From Sediminispirochaeta bajacaliforniensis DSM 16054 (lineage in GTDB: Bacteria; Spirochaetota; Spirochaetia; DSM-16054; Sediminispirochaetaceae): 64,000 nt of DNA. Positions 5,485 through 56,054 of this stretch are shown piece after piece. Made by a program: the position numbers and the translations under genes. The notes under the pieces were generated by a model that was given only the letters and a program-made list of their open reading frames with translations, did no database searches and was not told where the DNA came from. Location of the stretch: contig NZ_KB899416.1 of assembly GCF_000378205.1 (NCBI RefSeq), forward strand, positions 47,983 to 111,982. The letters run 5' to 3'. Position 1 is the stretch's first letter. Each line of letters opens with the position of its first letter.

Positions 5485-5563
5485 CCATTTGGGAGAGTGC
5501 TATATTTGTTTTCATGATTCTTGGGAAGCAATAAACCGGGCTGATGCTGTGTTTTTCACTGTT

Positions 5564-6706
5564 CTAATGCAAGAATTCGTCGAAAAGCGTCTGCTCGAAA
5601 ACCATTGATGCAGCTCCTGAAATAACAGGGTATGAGCCTGTTGGGGGTGTTACAGAGATCGGACCAAGATCTGAGGGAAGTGTTTCAAAGAGTTCGGATA
5701 AGCGATCATAGAGTGTCGGGTGCAATTTTTGCGGAATGATGCCGGATAAAATGAATTTTTTTACATCTAAGATTGCGACCAGATTAAAAATCACCGTGCT
5801 TATAAAAGGTACCAGATACCTAACGATGTCGCCGACTGTTTTTTCCGGGATCGTACAATTTTCTTCTATTGCAATATTGAAGCGTTTATTTATGGCACCG
5901 ATGTTGATTTGATCTTCCAAATTATGGATGCCGGGAAGATGTTTTGCATCACTTTCAATTGGGTGAACAAGGAGATTTCCTATTTCTCCTGCACGAAGGC
6001 TTTCTCCTCGCCAGAGATTACCTTCTATGATGATACCTGAACCTAAACCTGTCCCGAGCGAGATATAGACAATACTACTGTCGGCATTGTCACCGGTGAT
6101 AAGATTCTCGCCGGCACATGCCAAATTGACGTCATTGTCGATGAAGAAGGGGAGCTTGAGTTTTGCCTCTATCAACGGGATCAAAGAGTAAAAGCTGATA
6201 GGCTCTGTTATATGCAGGGGGTCATAACTGATGATTTCATTTGTCTGGGGATTTATATTTGCAGGAAAACCAATCCCCACTCCTAGCACAGGAACCGATG
6301 TCTTTGTCATCATGTCCCCAATGATGTCAACGATATGGTGAAAATAGCTTAAGTCATGGAGGTTTTTTATCACGACCGTTTTACATTCTTGAACCTCCCC
6401 TTCCAAATTGACTTTCCCAATCGTTGCTATTTGTCCCTCTATTTCAACTCCAAAGGCGTTGTAGGCGTTCGGGTTGAATTGTAACAATTTACTTCTTCTA
6501 CCAGGGCCTTCGATGATATCAAGTTCCCCAACATCATGAACCACTTCCTTTGAAATGAGAAAATCAACTACTTTCATTGCTGTGGGGAAGCTCATGTTTG
6601 TCAGTTTTGTAATTTGTGATCGCGAGAGCTTTTCGTATTTCTTAAATAAGTCAAAAACCAGTTTTCGATTTTTTGATTTTAAATAGATTGGTTGATATGA
6701 TCCCAC
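5564..6706 (-). CDS. ROK-family transcriptional repressor of the fructosamine-type operon
   Basis: 380 residues. Residues 15-65 form a winged helix-turn-helix (LSRSQITKLTNMSFPTAMKV), and the rest is a ROK sugar-kinase-like domain (IYISLGTGLGSGIIIEG, FIDNDVNLACAGE). The usual ROK zinc site CxCGxxGCxE after GEIGN is absent: the corresponding stretch is GEIGNLLVHPIESDAKHLPG. It therefore differs from NagC/Mlc-type members and from the second ROK protein at 40499. It is transcribed away from the importer operon starting at 7073, and the space between them holds matching A/T-rich operators, so it most likely represses both itself and the operon, with a sugar or sugar phosphate as inducer. Confidence 0.9.
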   Translation of the reverse strand: MGSYQPIYLKSKNRKLVFDLFKKYEKLSRSQITKLTNMSFPTAMKVVDFLISKEVVHDVGELDIIEGPGRRSKLLQFNPNAYNAFGVEIEGQIATIGKVNLEGEVQECKTVVIKNLHDLSYFHHIVDIIGDMMTKTSVPVLGVGIGFPANINPQTNEIISYDPLHITEPISFYSLIPLIEAKLKLPFFIDNDVNLACAGENLITGDNADSSIVYISLGTGLGSGIIIEGNLWRGESLRAGEIGNLLVHPIESDAKHLPGIHNLEDQINIGAINKRFNIAIEENCTIPEKTVGDIVRYLVPFISTVIFNLVAILDVKKFILSGIIPQKLHPTLYDRLSELFETLPSDLGPISVTPPTGSYPVISGAASMVFEQTLFDEFLH

Positions 6707-6727
6707 GGTCCCTAAAACCTCATTTCT

Positions 6728-6741
6728 TTTATTAAAGTTTA
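6728..6741. promoter_or_regulatory. Putative ROK operator, regulator-proximal copy
   Basis: TTTATTAAAGTTTA, 22 bp upstream of the ROK start codon, is the exact reverse complement of 7020-7033 beside the operon promoter. The position suggests autoregulation and possible looping between the two sites. The rest of 6742-6980 shows nothing else that I can identify. Confidence 0.55.
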
Positions 6742-6980
6742 GTATATATTAAGGCGTTGCCTTCGTATAGGTCAAGGTTGAAGACAATGGTGTTGGGGAT
6801 CGGGTTGGCTATTGTAATGTAACATAGGGACGATTCGCTATTCTCCGATATCGTAGTTTATTGTGTAAGGTGAACATTATCCCTTTGTTATATATGAATG
6901 ACCATAATGCCGCTTAATTCCCTCGTATTTGTGGAGCGGCTGCTTAACTGGCCATCGGCATCATGCTGTTTGGTTTTATA

Positions 6981-7033
6981 TTGACGGGTGGGAGAAACTA
7001 TGGTACAGTATTTATTAAATAAACTTTAATAAA
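6981..7033 (+). promoter_or_regulatory. Promoter and operator of the fructosamine-type operon
   Basis: A -35 box TTGACG (6981-6986) and a -10 box TACAGT (7003-7008) are 16 bp apart. Directly after the -10 lies a perfect inverted repeat, TTTATTAAA (7011-7019), five bases, TTTAATAAA (7025-7033). It covers the expected transcription start, where a bound repressor would block RNA polymerase. The palindromic half-site is the same as at 6728. Confidence 0.65.
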
Positions 7034-7072
7034 TAAATAGTGGTAATGCACTATTTATTGGAGGTCATTAGT

Positions 7073-8302
7073 ATGAAGAAAACCTTGCTGATGCTTTTCT
7101 TACCGCTGTTGGTATGTTCGATGGCTTTTGCTAACGGCAATGCTGAGAAAGAGACGAACGGAAAAACAACGATAGTCTTTTCAACAGGTATGCCAGATCA
7201 GGCATGGAAAAACACTTTGGAGCATATGATAGCTGAAGCTAATAAAACATTGGACACTGTTGAAATTGTGCCTGAGTACTATCCGTCTGAAGAAGAGATG
7301 TGGAAGATGTTACCTGCACAAATTGTGTCCGGTGCGGCTCCTGATCTCATCGGACTGAATAATGAAGGTGTTCTTGAGTTAATTGTTAACGGGACACTAA
7401 CACCTCTTGATGATTTAATCGAAAAATCGGGTTTTCCAATATCTGAACTTGATGCAAGCAATGTCAACGGCTGGAGATATAAAGGCGATCTATTCTCAAT
7501 ACCATATACCACGACCGTTAGCGGTCTTGCCGTCAATATGACATTACTTAAGAAAGCAGGTATCGAAAATCCGCCTTCAACCATGGATGAACTGGTAAAG
7601 GCTGCTGTTGCCGTTACTGATAAGGAGAAGGGCGTATACGGTGTATGCGTTAATCTGCATGAGTATCATATTACCCAGTATGTTCATGCACAGGGCGGTA
7701 GTTGGAATTACGGTAACCACATGCTCAATGGGAATAATGAAGCCGGTTTGAACTTCATTGTTGATCTTTTCGACAAATACCAAGTAGCCGCAACCCCTGC
7801 CCAGCTGGGATATAAAGGGGATACCGATGCCTTCGCGTCCGGGAAGTTCGCAATGACGACTGCAGGACCATGGTATATCCCCGCGTTGCGGGAGATGAAC
7901 CTTGATTTCGAATGGGTTGTTGTCCCGATACCTGCCGGAACCGTACAGCGATCTACTGTCTATGGCTGGGGCCTCTGTATCCTTGATTCCTGTAAACATA
8001 AAGAGGCGGCAATGCAGGCGGTTAGTGCCATGCTAAGTGATGAATCATATAAGTATTTAGCCGAGGTACGTGGTGATATACCGGCAATGACGAAATTTGT
8101 TCCTCGATATGAGGAGTTATACCCGGAAATGAAAGTTGTGATGCAAACCGCCAAAGACGGCATTGGCTTTGAATATCCGGCGGCTGCAAATAGGTTCAAA
8201 TCCGATCTTGTCACCGGAATGGAAGCAATCATTTTCCATCGTGGTAATCAGACCGTCGAAAATTTATTACAGAAAATGGAAGACGACGGTTATAAGAAAT
8301 AG
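7073..8302 (+). CDS. Sugar ABC importer, solute-binding protein (family 1)
   Basis: 409 residues from ATG 7073, with GGAGG 12 bases upstream (an in-frame GTG at 7040 lies in the leader). A signal peptide (MKKTLLMLFLPLLVCSMAFA) is followed by NGNAEKE. The body has the layout of family 1 extracellular sugar-binding proteins (PDLIGLNNEGVLELIVNGTL, YSIPYTTTVSGLAVN-like hinge region, GKFAMTTAGPWYIPALREM). It is the first gene of an operon with two permeases, a deglycase and a kinase, which matches FrlO in Bacillus frlBONMD. The predicted ligand is a fructosamine (Amadori compound) or a related sugar amine; this is inferred from the neighbours. Confidence 0.88.
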   Translation: MKKTLLMLFLPLLVCSMAFANGNAEKETNGKTTIVFSTGMPDQAWKNTLEHMIAEANKTLDTVEIVPEYYPSEEEMWKMLPAQIVSGAAPDLIGLNNEGVLELIVNGTLTPLDDLIEKSGFPISELDASNVNGWRYKGDLFSIPYTTTVSGLAVNMTLLKKAGIENPPSTMDELVKAAVAVTDKEKGVYGVCVNLHEYHITQYVHAQGGSWNYGNHMLNGNNEAGLNFIVDLFDKYQVAATPAQLGYKGDTDAFASGKFAMTTAGPWYIPALREMNLDFEWVVVPIPAGTVQRSTVYGWGLCILDSCKHKEAAMQAVSAMLSDESYKYLAEVRGDIPAMTKFVPRYEELYPEMKVVMQTAKDGIGFEYPAAANRFKSDLVTGMEAIIFHRGNQTVENLLQKMEDDGYKK

Positions 8303-8382
8303 GCAGTAGCTGTCTGCAAAAAGATCTACAGCTCTTGTGACATAAAACGAAAAGGGCTGTAGATCAGAAAGGGGTTTATTTG

Positions 8383-9303
8383 ATGCTTCTGAAACGGAAA
8401 CGGCTGACGTTGGAACAACAAGACTATATTGCTGGTTATGTATTCGTTCTTCCAATTTTGATAATGATGTCAATCTGGTTTTATTTTCCTGCAGTAAAAT
8501 CTTTGATATTCAGTTTTCAAGAGGTGAATTTTTTTTCTTTGAATCATCCGACTTTCATCGGTTTGAATAATTTTAAAGAACTCTTTCGTGACCCGAATTT
8601 CATTCAGGCCACAGGAAACACCATTTTCATAACCGTTATCAGCGTGCCTGTTTTATTAATATCCGGTTTCCTTATTGCCTACAATATAGAAAACATAGTT
8701 TCCGGTAGAGCATTATACAGAACATTGTTCTTTATACCTGCAGTAACCTCTGCTGTCGCCTTGACGATGGCCTTGATGTATCTGTTTGTATCAGGGGCTT
8801 TTATCCCTGTATTACTTAATAGATTATTCGGAATTCCGGATGTTACATGGCCGGCTGATCCGAGAACTGCGCTGGCGTTTGTCGCAATATTAGTGATATG
8901 GAAAAATCTCGGTATTTTTGTGGTGTTGTATATCAATGCACTGAATACCATTCCCAAAGAGATTTTTGAAGCAGCTGAATTGGATGGTGCAAAGGGGTTG
9001 AAGAAACTACGGTTTATCACCATCCCTCTCGTCAAACCGACTACTGTTTTGTCATTGCTGTTATGCGTTACATGGTGTATGCAGACCTTCGATGAGCCAT
9101 TTACCTTGGCGAGGTCAGGGAATGTTGTCGGATCTCCTGCAGGAACAACAAGTACATTAATTACATTCTTTTACTCTCAGAATTTTAGATTTTTCAGACC
9201 CGGATATGCTAGTTCTGCTGCTTTTTTTCTGTTCTTAATCCTTTTACTTTTTTCACTTGGTCAGAACGCTATCGAAAAGAGACAAGAGAGAAGGGATACC
9301 TAA
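8383..9303 (+). CDS. Sugar ABC importer, permease (MalF type)
   Basis: 306 residues, six or so membrane spans, with the inner-membrane EAA loop EAAELDGAKGLKKLRFITIPLVKP near residues 195-218, which contacts the ATPase. Start at ATG 8383, 10 bases after AAAGGGG; a TTG one codon earlier is possible. It lies about 80 bp after the binding protein and just before the second permease, in the position of FrlN. No ATPase gene is in the operon, so a shared ATPase encoded elsewhere (as MsmX in Bacillus) is likely to energise it. Confidence 0.9.
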   Translation: MLLKRKRLTLEQQDYIAGYVFVLPILIMMSIWFYFPAVKSLIFSFQEVNFFSLNHPTFIGLNNFKELFRDPNFIQATGNTIFITVISVPVLLISGFLIAYNIENIVSGRALYRTLFFIPAVTSAVALTMALMYLFVSGAFIPVLLNRLFGIPDVTWPADPRTALAFVAILVIWKNLGIFVVLYINALNTIPKEIFEAAELDGAKGLKKLRFITIPLVKPTTVLSLLLCVTWCMQTFDEPFTLARSGNVVGSPAGTTSTLITFFYSQNFRFFRPGYASSAAFFLFLILLLFSLGQNAIEKRQERRDT

Positions 9304-9304
9304 G

Positions 9305-10120
9305 GTGAAATCTGATACGAGGAAAATACGCTTGCTGCGTTACGCTATTTTGTCACTGCTGTCGCTATTGTACCTGATACCATTTCTTTACGCGATCTAT
9401 ACTTCGTTTCTCGGAAAAGCCGATATCGGGAAAATTGTTTTACCGACGAGATGGGTGCTTGAGAATTACAAGGATGTTTTTAATGCCGGTCTGGTGACGT
9501 GGTATAAAAATAGTTTGATTATGACTTCCGGTATTATTCTCGGCAATATTTTTTTTAATACCCTTGCCGGTTATGCACTGGCACGAATCAGGTTCCCGGG
9601 GAGAAATGTAATATTCTTTATTATTATTGGAACAATGATGATCTCTGGGCAAATAACAATTGTACCAATTTATATTATGTGTGTGAACCTTGGATGGATT
9701 AATACCTACAAGGCCCTCATTATTCCCTTTTTAACGAATGGAATGTTGACATTCTTTATGCGTCAATATTTTCTTTCTATTCCTGTTGAGCTGGAAGAAT
9801 CTGCACGTATCGATGGCCTGGGGCGTTTCGGAACTTTTGCCAGAATAGTACTTCCAATTTCGACCATGTCATTGGCAACTCAAATTATATTTCTTTTTCG
9901 GGATTGGTGGAACCAGCTATTATGGCCGGTAACCCTTACGAATCGGTTAAATATGTTTGTTGTTACCGCAGGATTGAATTCACTGAAGGGCCAGTATTAC
10001 GAATGGACAAATCTTTCCATGGCGGGAGTCGTGTGCGCAATACTCCCCATTATCATTATTTTTATCTTCATGCAGAAGCAATTTGCTGAAAGTATTGCAG
10101 TTGTCGGGATAAAGGGATAA
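9305..10120 (+). CDS. Sugar ABC importer, permease (MalG type)
   Basis: 271 residues starting at GTG 9305, one base after the stop of the first permease, with AGAAGGG upstream; an earlier in-frame start overlapping the first permease has no ribosome site. It has six membrane spans and the EAA loop ELEESARIDGLGRFGTFARI. The C-terminus (GIKG) is typical of MalG-type permeases. It corresponds to FrlM in the Bacillus fructosamine operon. Confidence 0.9.
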   Translation: MKSDTRKIRLLRYAILSLLSLLYLIPFLYAIYTSFLGKADIGKIVLPTRWVLENYKDVFNAGLVTWYKNSLIMTSGIILGNIFFNTLAGYALARIRFPGRNVIFFIIIGTMMISGQITIVPIYIMCVNLGWINTYKALIIPFLTNGMLTFFMRQYFLSIPVELEESARIDGLGRFGTFARIVLPISTMSLATQIIFLFRDWWNQLLWPVTLTNRLNMFVVTAGLNSLKGQYYEWTNLSMAGVVCAILPIIIIFIFMQKQFAESIAVVGIKG

Positions 10121-10162
10121 TAGAAATTTTACGCAACAAAATTTTTCACTTCAGGAGGAAAC

Positions 10163-11158
10163 ATGTATCAGAACGAGTATGCTCTTTTAGAAAAACAGTT
10201 AGGCGCTATAAAAGCCGCCTTCTCGGAGAAGCGGATAACAAGCATTTATTTTGTCGCATGTGGTGGTTCCTTGGCGACAATAGCGCCTGGAAAATACCTT
10301 GTTGACCGATTAGCCTGCAACGTGAAGACCGGCTTATATACTGCAGGAGAATTTTATGCAGATCCACCCGTTGATATTTCTGGTGAGACGTTAATAATTC
10401 TGAATTCTCAGAGTGGTAATACACAGGAAACCTGTGATGCCGCCGGTATTGCGAAGGAAAAAGGTGCTCTGCTTTTGGCGTTTACGACAAATTCTGATTC
10501 CAGGATCACTGCATTGGCCGACTATACCGTGCTGTATTATGATACTATATTATACCCTTATCCCTTGGCCCTTTCTATATTTCCGTGCGTCTGGCGAACC
10601 ATCTTCACCATCATAGATGTCTTGGAGCAGAAAACGTATAGCAAAGATGTTTTTCATGCTATGGAGCATTTGGAAGAAATTTGTGATGCTGCTTACACCG
10701 AGCATAAGCAAGAAGCAAAAAAGTTTGCCTCAATGATGCGGAATGAGAAAAATATCTACACCATCGGTGCCGGTATCGATCACTACATATCCTATGTCCT
10801 TTCGAATTGTCTTTTTATGGAGTCGCTTTGGCTTAATTCTTCGGCTGTTCATGCTGGTGAATTCTTTCATGGGGCCTTTGAGGCCTTTGACAACCGGACA
10901 GCGGTATTTGTTTTCTTGGGCTTGGGCAATACAAGATCCCTGGAACAGCGTGCGGTGATTTTTCTGCAAAGAAAGACAGAAAAACTTACGGTGCTCGATG
11001 CGAAGAGGCTTTCGCTTGACCCGGTAGCTTTTTGGTTGCGGCCATATGTAGCTCCGCTTGTTCTTAACTTTCTGGCAGCAAAATATTGTGACGAGTTGTC
11101 GTATGCAAAGGGGCATCCGATTTCATCAAGACGATACATGGGAATAGAGAAATACTGA
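10163..11158 (+). CDS. frlB: FrlB-like sugar-phosphate deglycase (SIS domains)
   Basis: 331 residues after a strong AGGAGG. It has two SIS sugar-phosphate isomerase folds. The first contains YFVACGGSLATIAPGKYLVD, YTAGEFYADPP and NSQSGNTQETCDAA, which follow the fructoselysine-6-phosphate deglycase FrlB motif by motif; the second includes SSAVHAGEFFHGAFEAFD, around the expected catalytic Glu/His. FrlB splits a phosphorylated Amadori product into glucose 6-phosphate and an amine or amino acid. The kinase that would supply its substrate is the next gene, four bases on. GlmS-type or AgaS-type SIS enzymes are the alternatives, but both similarity and context favour FrlB. Confidence 0.78.
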   Translation: MYQNEYALLEKQLGAIKAAFSEKRITSIYFVACGGSLATIAPGKYLVDRLACNVKTGLYTAGEFYADPPVDISGETLIILNSQSGNTQETCDAAGIAKEKGALLLAFTTNSDSRITALADYTVLYYDTILYPYPLALSIFPCVWRTIFTIIDVLEQKTYSKDVFHAMEHLEEICDAAYTEHKQEAKKFASMMRNEKNIYTIGAGIDHYISYVLSNCLFMESLWLNSSAVHAGEFFHGAFEAFDNRTAVFVFLGLGNTRSLEQRAVIFLQRKTEKLTVLDAKRLSLDPVAFWLRPYVAPLVLNFLAAKYCDELSYAKGHPISSRRYMGIEKY

Positions 11159-11162
11159 GCTT

Positions 11163-11999
11163 ATGAACATCATTGGAGTAGGCGACAGCGTATTAGATGA
11201 ATATGTCGATTTTGATATTATGTATCCCGGTGGGAACTCGGTCAATGTTCCGGTCTTGGCGAAGCGATGCGGAGCTGTTCAATCTGCATATATCGGAATA
11301 CTAGGAAATGATTATCCCGGAACCTGTTTTCGTGAAAGCCTGACAAACGAGGGGATTGATATCTCAAGACTTAGGGTTGTGTACGGTCAAACGGCAAGAA
11401 ATAAAGTCCATATCGACGGTAATGGCGACAGAAAATTTATCGGGAACAATGGGTGCGACGTTGCCCAAAAGATGCTTACGCTAACGTTAAATGATAACGA
11501 TATAACGTGTATACGTGCCTATGATATTTTGCATACAAGTTTTCATAGCGAGATCGATGAAATCTTGCATAAAGTTGTTGGAAAGGTAAGAGTTTCACTC
11601 GATTTCTCAGATGCATATGATGAGCAGGCTTTATCTGCATATTGTGGCATGGTCGACTTTGCCTTTTTATCGGCCGGGAAGTATAGTGAACGGGAAGCGG
11701 AGCACTATGCTGGTTATGCGTTAGAATGCGGAGCGAAAACAGTTGTCTTGACAAAAGGAATACGGGGATCGTTAATCCTGACAAGAAATCAAAAACATTC
11801 CGAACATGCCGTTCCTGTCGAGCCGAAGGATACGCTTGGGGCCGGCGATGCATATATTGCTTCGTTTCTTCGTCATTTTTTTGATAGTAGCGGAAATATT
11901 GAGTTAGCGGCTCAGCAAGCCAGTAAATTTGCTTCTTTATCGTGTTTGTCGTCCGGAGCCTTTGGGTATCCAATCAACCTGACGAAAACTATGGGATAA
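11163..11999 (+). CDS. frlD: FrlD-like fructosamine kinase (PfkB family)
   Basis: 278 residues, PfkB/ribokinase fold. N-terminal signature GVGDSVLDEYVDFDIMYPGGN (GN sugar-binding pair) and C-terminal DTLGAGDAYIASFL with the catalytic Asp. It shares with FrlD a short N-terminus, the DFSDAYDEQ stretch in the middle and the FAFLSAG-type region (here FAFLSAGKYSE). It would phosphorylate the imported fructosamine at C6 before FrlB. It ends the operon; copy A of the structured repeat and a terminator follow. Confidence 0.78.
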   Translation: MNIIGVGDSVLDEYVDFDIMYPGGNSVNVPVLAKRCGAVQSAYIGILGNDYPGTCFRESLTNEGIDISRLRVVYGQTARNKVHIDGNGDRKFIGNNGCDVAQKMLTLTLNDNDITCIRAYDILHTSFHSEIDEILHKVVGKVRVSLDFSDAYDEQALSAYCGMVDFAFLSAGKYSEREAEHYAGYALECGAKTVVLTKGIRGSLILTRNQKHSEHAVPVEPKDTLGAGDAYIASFLRHFFDSSGNIELAAQQASKFASLSCLSSGAFGYPINLTKTMG

Positions 12000-12050
12000 T
12001 CAAATGGTCTATTGCAATGCGTTTTCACCTTTGAAAGAACATTTTTACGG

Positions 12051-12142
12051 GGGTCCGGGGCGAAGCCCCGGAGAAGGGGGTGCGGCGAGATCACCGGGGA
12101 CGAAGGACCCGGAAGCTCGCCGCAGGGGGAAGGCTTTCCCCC
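12051..12142. repeat. Structured dispersed repeat, copy A
   Basis: About 92 bp that recur at 55882-55970. Three stems can be drawn: CCGGGGC/GCCCCGG (12055-12071); GCGGCGAG (12082-12089) with CTCGCCGC (12116-12123) enclosing CCGGG/CCCGG (12094-12112); and GGGGGAA/TTTCCCCC (12125-12142). In the other copy one base pair of the long outer stem is swapped (GCGCCGAG/CTCGGCGC), so the pairing, rather than the exact sequence, is kept. It lies between the kinase stop and a terminator and contains no gene. I do not recognise the family. Confidence 0.8.
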
Positions 12143-12185
12143 ACCAGAAAAGAAAGGGGAAAAATTCTTTCTGAGTGTGTTACCG

Positions 12186-25866: not shown

Positions 25867-25940
25867 TCTGAATATTTCCGTAGAAAGAAATTACGTTCCT
25901 TCAATCACCAGGATTCGGAACAGTAGGTAAGGAGATCCCT

Positions 25941-55136: not shown

Positions 55137-55828
55137 ACTTTTTTTCCATCAACCATGTAGCCTTCACCGTCCTTCAGTATCCCATGAGCTATGTGGAGTT
55201 TCTGGGGACCATCTTTTATATATGGTCGGTCTGGCTGATTGCTCAAAAAAAGATGCTCACCTGGCCGGTCGGTATTATATCGGTCATCCTGTATGCATTT
55301 CTTTTCTATCAGATTCGTCTCTATTCTGATTTTCTGGAACAGCTCTACTACTTGGGGGCCAGTGTCTATGGATGGTGGTTTTGGGATAAAAAGAAAAAAG
55401 AGGATCAGGAGATCGCTGTTGTCCGCGGCACTCTAAAGAATAATATATTCTGGCTGGCCGGTATTCTCATCGTTTCGGGATTCACCGGCCTTTTGATGGG
55501 AAGAATCCATCTGATTTTTCCGAATGTCTTTCCCCAGCCGGCTGATTTTCCTTTCTGGGATGCCTTTACCACCATAAGTAGTTTTGCCGCCATGTTTCTT
55601 TTGGCCCGAAAACGATTTGAAAGCTGGTTTCTCTGGATTGTGGTTGATGTGATAGGAATCGTGCTCTATTACGTCAAGGGGGTGAAATTCCTTTCGCTGC
55701 TGTACGTCTTTCTGTTGCTTATCGCCCTTAAGGGCTTCTTAAGCTGGTGGTCCTCTTTGCGTAGTGTTCCGAATCCTGGTGATGGTCGGAACCCCACCCA
55801 TCTTGGGAGAGACCGTGATGGTATGTGA
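55130..55828 (+). CDS. pnuC: Nicotinamide riboside transporter PnuC
   Basis: 232 residues, overlapping nadR by 7 bp. Seven or so membrane helices with PnuC landmarks: SYVEFLGTIFYIWSVWLIAQ, LYSDFLEQLYYLGASVYGWW and WIVVDVIGIVLYYVKG. It brings nicotinamide riboside into the cell for NadR. The last 20 residues or so (SVPNPGDGRNPTHLGRDRDG) do not look like PnuC. They are encoded by the repeat that begins at 55762, so the original stop was probably lost when the repeat region arrived. It is the last gene of the overlapping run. Confidence 0.92.
   Translation: MLNFFSINHVAFTVLQYPMSYVEFLGTIFYIWSVWLIAQKKMLTWPVGIISVILYAFLFYQIRLYSDFLEQLYYLGASVYGWWFWDKKKKEDQEIAVVRGTLKNNIFWLAGILIVSGFTGLLMGRIHLIFPNVFPQPADFPFWDAFTTISSFAAMFLLARKRFESWFLWIVVDVIGIVLYYVKGVKFLSLLYVFLLLIALKGFLSWWSSLRSVPNPGDGRNPTHLGRDRDGM
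55762..55781 (+). repeat. 20-bp direct repeat, left copy (within the pnuC tail)
   Basis: TAGTGTTCCGAATCCTGGTG occurs here and, unchanged, at 56055-56074. The pair flanks copy B of the structured repeat. Confidence 0.85.
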
Positions 55829-55881
55829 CCGGCTGCTGCAAGAAAAAGGTCGGGGTAGAAAGGTCCCGTAATCTTTGGGGC

Positions 55882-55970
55882 CCGGGGCGAAGAGCCCCGG
55901 AGAAGGGGGTGCGCCGAGATCGCCGGGGGCTTCCCCCGGAAGCTCGGCGCAGGGGGAAGGCGTTCCCCCC
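55882..55970. repeat. Structured dispersed repeat, copy B
   Basis: Matches copy A at 12051-12142 over its whole length. Stems: CCGGGGC/GCCCCGG (55882-55900); GCGCCGAG (55911-55918) with CTCGGCGC (55943-55950) around CCGGGGG/CCCCCGG (55923-55939); and GGGGGAA/TTCCCCC (55952-55970). The rest of 55829-56210 has no gene that I can support. The strand is not known. Confidence 0.8.
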
Positions 55971-56054
55971 ACCAAAAAAGAGAAAGTCTGAAGGTCGAAA
56001 TTTATATGACAGGCAGGTATTCCTCTGCATTACCATTCGGCTGTTTCACGAGGA

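Follow-up and report, generated by a model that had tools for sequence, protein, structure and literature searches.

In the 64,000-nucleotide stretch of DNA analyzed here (the window), two copies of a short non-coding dispersed repeat (~75–130 bp, roughly 95 bases) represent an apparently unnamed family in which, in most copies, a purine linker and the third hairpin vary together as an antiparallel purine-motif DNA triplex would require. We consider it probable that the repeat is defined by the fold of its + strand, an intrastrand triplex of single-stranded DNA, and that it is a selfish, non-autonomous element, distinct in its present-day hosts from both REP/RAYT repeats and retro-elements.

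The two copies, read directly from the sequence, occupy positions 12049–12146 and 55877–55974 on the + strand and are 85% identical over 101 bases (E 3.1e-24). An earlier, sequence-only reading of this DNA had described two similar copies with the same three hairpins lying outside genes, and both points hold: each copy folds alone into these hairpins, with minimum free energies of −59.3 and −65.2 kcal/mol (z ∼ −3.9; no more than one shuffle in 200 gave so low an energy), and each lies ∼50 bp past a gene end, copy 1 downstream (3′) of a pfkB-like gene ending at 11999 and copy 2 downstream of an NMN-transporter gene ending at 55828. The element runs slightly past the coordinates first given because a 5′ G-run ahead of hairpin 1 belongs to it.

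In copy 1, all on the + strand, this G-run (12049–12053) is the proposed third strand of a first triplex module, on the basis of sequence and run lengths. It is followed by hairpin 1 (TCCGGGGC-GAA-GCCCCGGA; 12054–12072), seen in the fold and with covariation in 7 of 8 pairs, and by the linker GAAGGGGG (12073–12080), which mirrors the purine arm of hairpin 3 and is proposed as the reverse-Hoogsteen strand of a second module. Hairpin 2 (12081–12124) folds with an outer stem at 12081–12089/12116–12124, an internal loop ATCA/AAG and an inner stem at 12094–12098/12108–12112, and has double changes in 13 of 14 pairs (alignment helices 2 and 3); hairpin 3 (GGGGGAAGGCTTTCCCCC; 12125–12142), the proposed duplex of the second module, has 6 of its 7 pairs doubly changed. 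The same parts recur on the + strand in copy 2: the 5′ G-run (55877–55880), hairpin 1 (CCGGGGC-GAAGA-GCCCCGG; 55882–55900), the linker GAAGGGGG (55902–55909; same basis as in copy 1), hairpin 2 (55910–55951; outer stem TGCGCCGAG/CTCGGCGCA, inner stem CCGGGGG/CCCCCGG) and hairpin 3 (GGGGGAAGGCGTTCCCCC; 55952–55969), the hairpins being drawn from the fold.

The compensatory swap that first drew attention to the repeat is a real double change in the outer stem of hairpin 2 (12085:12120 against 55914:55947), which reads GCGGCGAG/CTCGCCGC in copy 1 and GCGCCGAG/CTCGGCGC in copy 2; a T:G intermediate, GCGTCGAG/CTCGGCGC, is present in a near relative's orthologue of copy 2 (locus L009). One swapped pair in two copies proves little about structure, and it is the wider family that supplies the proof. 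The window also contains a CRISPR array (1–1941; ∼29 repeats of GTCGCACCCCTCGCGGGTGCGTGGATTGAAAC at a spacing of 65–68, the final one degenerate), a region that aligns with a related array in the congeneric genome G001. A second dispersed repeat, ∼150 bp and MITE-like with inverted ends TA(C/G)TGTTCCGAATCCTGGTG, is found at ∼20 places in G001 (e.g. locus L016 9611/9736 and locus L013 2126/2251) and in the window at 25906 (−), 55766 (+) and 56059 (+), so that copy 2 is flanked by two end copies of it.

That the element forms a repeat family was borne out by covariance-model searches and by a cross-phylum pattern scan. The first covariance model was built from 4 copies and the second from 34; the first detected relatives in 38 of the 395 genomes of the class, and the second returned 68, 48, 32, 27 and 18 copies in single genomes (48 in G312, 32 in G346, 27 in G113, and 18 in G352). 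Two copies in the window's own genome (G000) are clear and a third is divergent; in G001, a single contig of 4,653,970 bp, copies lie at 1137319, 1188108, and 3194515, with a 3′ half at 1145003. Elsewhere we counted 67 copies in Treponema bryantii, 55 in Treponema ruminis, 48 in a Fibrobacter succinogenes MAG and 1–5 in each alphaproteobacterial genome searched. The pattern-scan matches listed include Treponema, Fibrobacter, many Alphaproteobacteria, Prosthecobacter, Nitrospirae, a deltaproteobacterium, and Bryobacterales, with an identical layout among those listed for species genomes; because the scan demands one linker/hairpin-3 form, its matches were excluded from the covariation tests. 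The element is also carried by 14 plasmid records, and phage records gave no match.

Some copies depart from the full form. Half copies are broken within hairpin 2, with 5′ halves at L007 (G008) and L008 (G033) and the 3′ half of G001 at L010. In a divergent, long version in G000 (C11:43286–43415; L003) and G001 (C1:4613765; L328), the hairpin-2 region is extended, the linker is G-rich and hairpin 3 is of the GGGGGAG form. The element had not been recognized as a described family, and no Rfam family matched it at the gathering cut-off; nor did the openly readable part of the literature on Treponema, Fibrobacter, REP sequences, and palindromes hold a description of it.

The suggestion that the structure is under selection called for an excess of paired over unpaired changes among further copies, and this excess is strongly present. 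Across 34 diverse copies, 95.4% of cells were paired compared with 74.9% after shuffling, 26 of the 29 pairs had changes on both sides, and the covariation signal disappeared when partners were slid by one to three columns. Judged by covariation, the three hairpins are conserved. The alignment used here had been fitted to the model, so the evidence from the linker and hairpin 3 counts for more.

The purine linker between hairpins 1 and 2, read backwards, gives the 5′ (purine) arm of hairpin 3. This mirror relation takes several forms (GAAGGGGG/GGGGGAAG, GAAGGGG/GGGGAAG, GAGGGGG/GGGGGAG, GAGAGGGG/GGGGAGAG, and GAAAGGGG/GGGGAAAG), and departures from it place T opposite A (GAATGGGG/GGGGAAAG, GATGGGGG/GGGGGAAG, and GAGTGGGG/GGGGAGAG). 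A third strand of the antiparallel purine motif obeys G.GC, A.AT, and T.AT (PMC4666352), and in most copies the sequences of the third, purine, and pyrimidine strands agree with G.GC and A(T).AT in antiparallel order.

We quantified agreement with this code by reassigning hairpin 3 within genomes. It was satisfied by 119 of 148 copies (shuffle mean 63, maximum 77), three of whose linkers were set by hand from the sequence after mis-parsing, and by 63 of 82 distinct types (34 shuffled, maximum 47), among which T stood opposite A 10 times and opposite G never. The code had been spotted in the 148-copy set before it was tested there, so the independent test is that on 55 further copies from Fibrobacter, T. 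ruminis, T. bryantii, alphaproteobacterial, and Prosthecobacter genomes outside the first test; this set, which partly shares a genus with the first, gave 46 of 55 (22 shuffled, maximum 32). Copies within a genome are related, and the shuffle figures are thus not exact probabilities. Where the G-runs are of equal length, the flanking letters obeyed the code in 119 of 122 copies. About one-fifth of copies break it, mainly with A opposite G (GAGAGGG with GGGGGAG), a non-standard triad.

Run lengths are consistent with two separate modules. Nearly every full copy has four G-runs. The run in the linker is as long as that in hairpin 3 in 82% of copies (39% shuffled), and the 5′ run is as long as the G:C run of hairpin 1 in 69% (38% shuffled; 74% vs 40% in the further copies) and matches no other run. 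The four cross-comparisons lie near chance, with the same specificity in the further copies, a pattern that speaks against both a general effect of subfamilies and a quadruplex built from the four runs. The 5′ G-run may form a triplex on hairpin 1 as well.

Non-Watson–Crick pairs bear on which strand folds. Read on the + strand, they comprise 60 G.T against 14 A.C, most of the G.T excess falling in the two outermost pairs of hairpin 1, which may be unpaired, together with many G.A and few C.T; this predominance of G.T and G.A makes the + strand the likelier folded strand. RNA is reported not to form purine-motif triplexes (PMC4666352), and the orientation of the element relative to neighboring genes is mixed (++ 23, −− 18, −+ 17, and +− 11), so single-stranded DNA is the likelier molecule. 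In the mechanism we propose, the + strand would turn single-stranded during replication, repair, or transfer, and the linker would occupy the major groove of hairpin 3 in antiparallel orientation, giving an intrastrand triplex of the class I purine-motif type in which hairpin 2 is the connecting loop; the 5′ G-run may pair likewise with hairpin 1. The folded strand would be the unit that is copied or tolerated, allowing the element to spread as a selfish, non-autonomous repeat via a putative enzyme, and the element may also serve as a fragile site for the exchange of DNA blocks. A broader version, which we offer tentatively, is that these are cross-phylum mobile DNA repeats transmitted as a single strand, folded into two purine-motif triplexes of class I that flank a variable hairpin.

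The sequence-only reading had called the repeat “REP-like or RNA-level”. A structured RNA (a small RNA or cis-regulator) selected as RNA, with the linker matches incidental or reflecting an RNA tertiary contact, would account for the strong pair covariation and the strand asymmetry of G.T pairs, and at relaxed thresholds the only Rfam match was a weak but full-length one to the Clostridiales-2 RNA (RF02937), across hairpin 1, the linker, and hairpin 2 of two copies. These matches scored 29.0 and 22.7 bits, far under the gathering score of 58.6, and the RF02937 model lacks the hairpin 3 of the present element, so membership of that family was rejected. With copies also lying within coding sequence in either orientation, and with the linker and hairpin 3 covarying by a code reported not to operate in RNA, we give an RNA element a small share of the probability, below that of single-stranded DNA. 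Watson–Crick pairing offers another account of the G-runs, in which the C-runs would pair instead with the linker or the 5′ G-run in competing hairpins, as a switch or a slippage product. The G-run lengths do match those of the neighboring C-runs, and at hairpin 1, where only lengths are informative, such competition is indistinguishable from a triplex and is still to be reckoned with. At hairpin 3, by contrast, 119 of 148 copies have flanking letters that fit the mirror, whereas only 17 of 148 contain the reverse complement, a Watson–Crick partner of the linker; because a mirror relation cannot arise from Watson–Crick pairing, we rejected the latter as its source and regard competing hairpins as unlikely overall. 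A four-run G-quadruplex on the + strand could draw on the four G-runs, and quadruplexes can compete with such triplexes (PMC4666352), yet it would need four like runs, contrary to the near-chance cross-module lengths in both data sets, and would leave the A/T letters unexplained; we consider it highly improbable.

The other suggestion made from the sequence, a REP/IS200-type repeat with single-stranded DNA hairpins that a Y1 (RAYT) transposase would mobilize in trans, fared worse. The element is short, palindromic, intergenic, and present in many copies, and its linker is often preceded by GTAG or GGAG (also GCAG, CTAG, and others). However, a search for PF01797 (Y1/RAYT) that gave matches in control genomes found none in 16 of the 20 genomes searched, including both genomes of the window's genus (G000 and G001) and six with 12–48 copies each (G312, G346, G352, G113, G344, and G099). 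When the ORFs of ∼145 loci were clustered, the Treponema loci shared no mobility gene, nor any other neighboring gene. The REP/IS200 reading is already largely refuted for the present hosts, and we judge it quite unlikely. Derivation from a retro-element or group II intron was not supported in present hosts either, as reverse transcriptase (PF00078) is absent from several copy-rich hosts (G346, G113, G080, and G167, with 14–32 copies each).

Treponema copies sit in the gaps between housekeeping genes that are unrelated to one another and often abut stop codons, and some enter reading frames. Of 30 Treponema, at least 8 have the element in-frame in the inter-domain linker of CarB; these are scattered over the carB gene tree so that at least four changes are forced, and the element therefore probably spreads. 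The carB copies share one position and orientation, and a single old insertion followed by losses and gene conversion is a possible explanation of the pattern. The in-frame peptide (e.g. GVAGATPAERVATNEVGAKGETSPS) is found at L329, L332, L333, L335, L339, L341, L345, and L354; an element-like peptide is also seen at L330 and L344, both labeled element-free in the CarB set. CarA has a copy as well, in-frame between its two domains and in reverse orientation. A strict empty site with a target duplication, as expected of a MITE or other transposed element, was sought at orthologous loci and among the scattered carB insertions, and none was found; one orthologue proved to be a copy eroding by internal deletion.

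Copy 1 lies at the edge of a 6.5-kb block (window 5485–12049) that is absent from G001 at this place, and G001 has a different 7.6-kb block (C1 1137420–1145003) between a full and a half copy. In this single case, block exchange beside the element would fit the instability reported for TMECO loci (PMC4666352). An integration site was considered for the block swap and rejected, since inspection by eye of the ORFs in the 7.6-kb block revealed no integrase. At the alphaproteobacterial loci, the ORF clustering showed a recurrent ArdC-like gene, and the element adjoins the leader of this or another conserved gene, with the sequence CTCAACCCGTCACGG...CACTCTCACTCT; these loci include L157, L160, L164, L167, L179, and L189, apparently in plasmid or island regions.

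The existence and role of DNA triplexes in cells is a long-standing question, and in vivo footprinting of TMECO in Escherichia coli did not find a stable triplex (PMC4666352). The ∼200 natural variants described here, in which third strand and duplex change together by the triplex code, are evolutionary evidence independent of footprinting, and matched and mismatched variants form a ready-made test set. If the two-triplex mobile family is real, it would be natural comparative evidence that selection acts on a DNA triple helix in living bacteria; it would also imply that some undescribed enzyme recognizes the folded strand. The element is abundant in cultured Treponema and Fibrobacter, and adds peptide linkers to enzymes such as CarB.

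Several known repeats resemble the present element in part. Rickettsia palindromic elements are short palindromic repeats found in-frame inside protein genes; compared by description, the present element also enters reading frames, but differs in its triplex code and phylum range. REP/RAYT repeats are likewise small, palindromic, mostly intergenic, and present in many copies, whereas the present element has three hairpins and a conserved purine linker, and several of its copy-rich hosts lack a Y1 transposase. BoxC (PIT element, TMECO) is closest in kind and in its probable way of working, being a short GC-rich dispersed intergenic repeat found on either strand without an associated transposase, with the triads G.GC, A.AT, and T.AT and an antiparallel third strand (in the present element by sequence alone), and tied to variable loci (PMC4666352). 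TMECO is class II, with the pattern CCCTCNCCC-N3-6-GGGNGAGGG-N3-GGGNGAGGG and loops of 3–6 bases (PMC4666352). Assignment to this pattern was rejected, as the present copies read GAAGGGG-[hairpin 2]-GGGGAAG-loop-CTTTCCCC with the third strand 5′, and the published search could not have detected them, as it admitted only loops of 1–6 bases (PMC4666352). The present element would instead be class I, with a hairpin region of ∼22–80 bases between the 5′ third strand and the duplex, an added module of G-run and hairpin 1, and different hosts.
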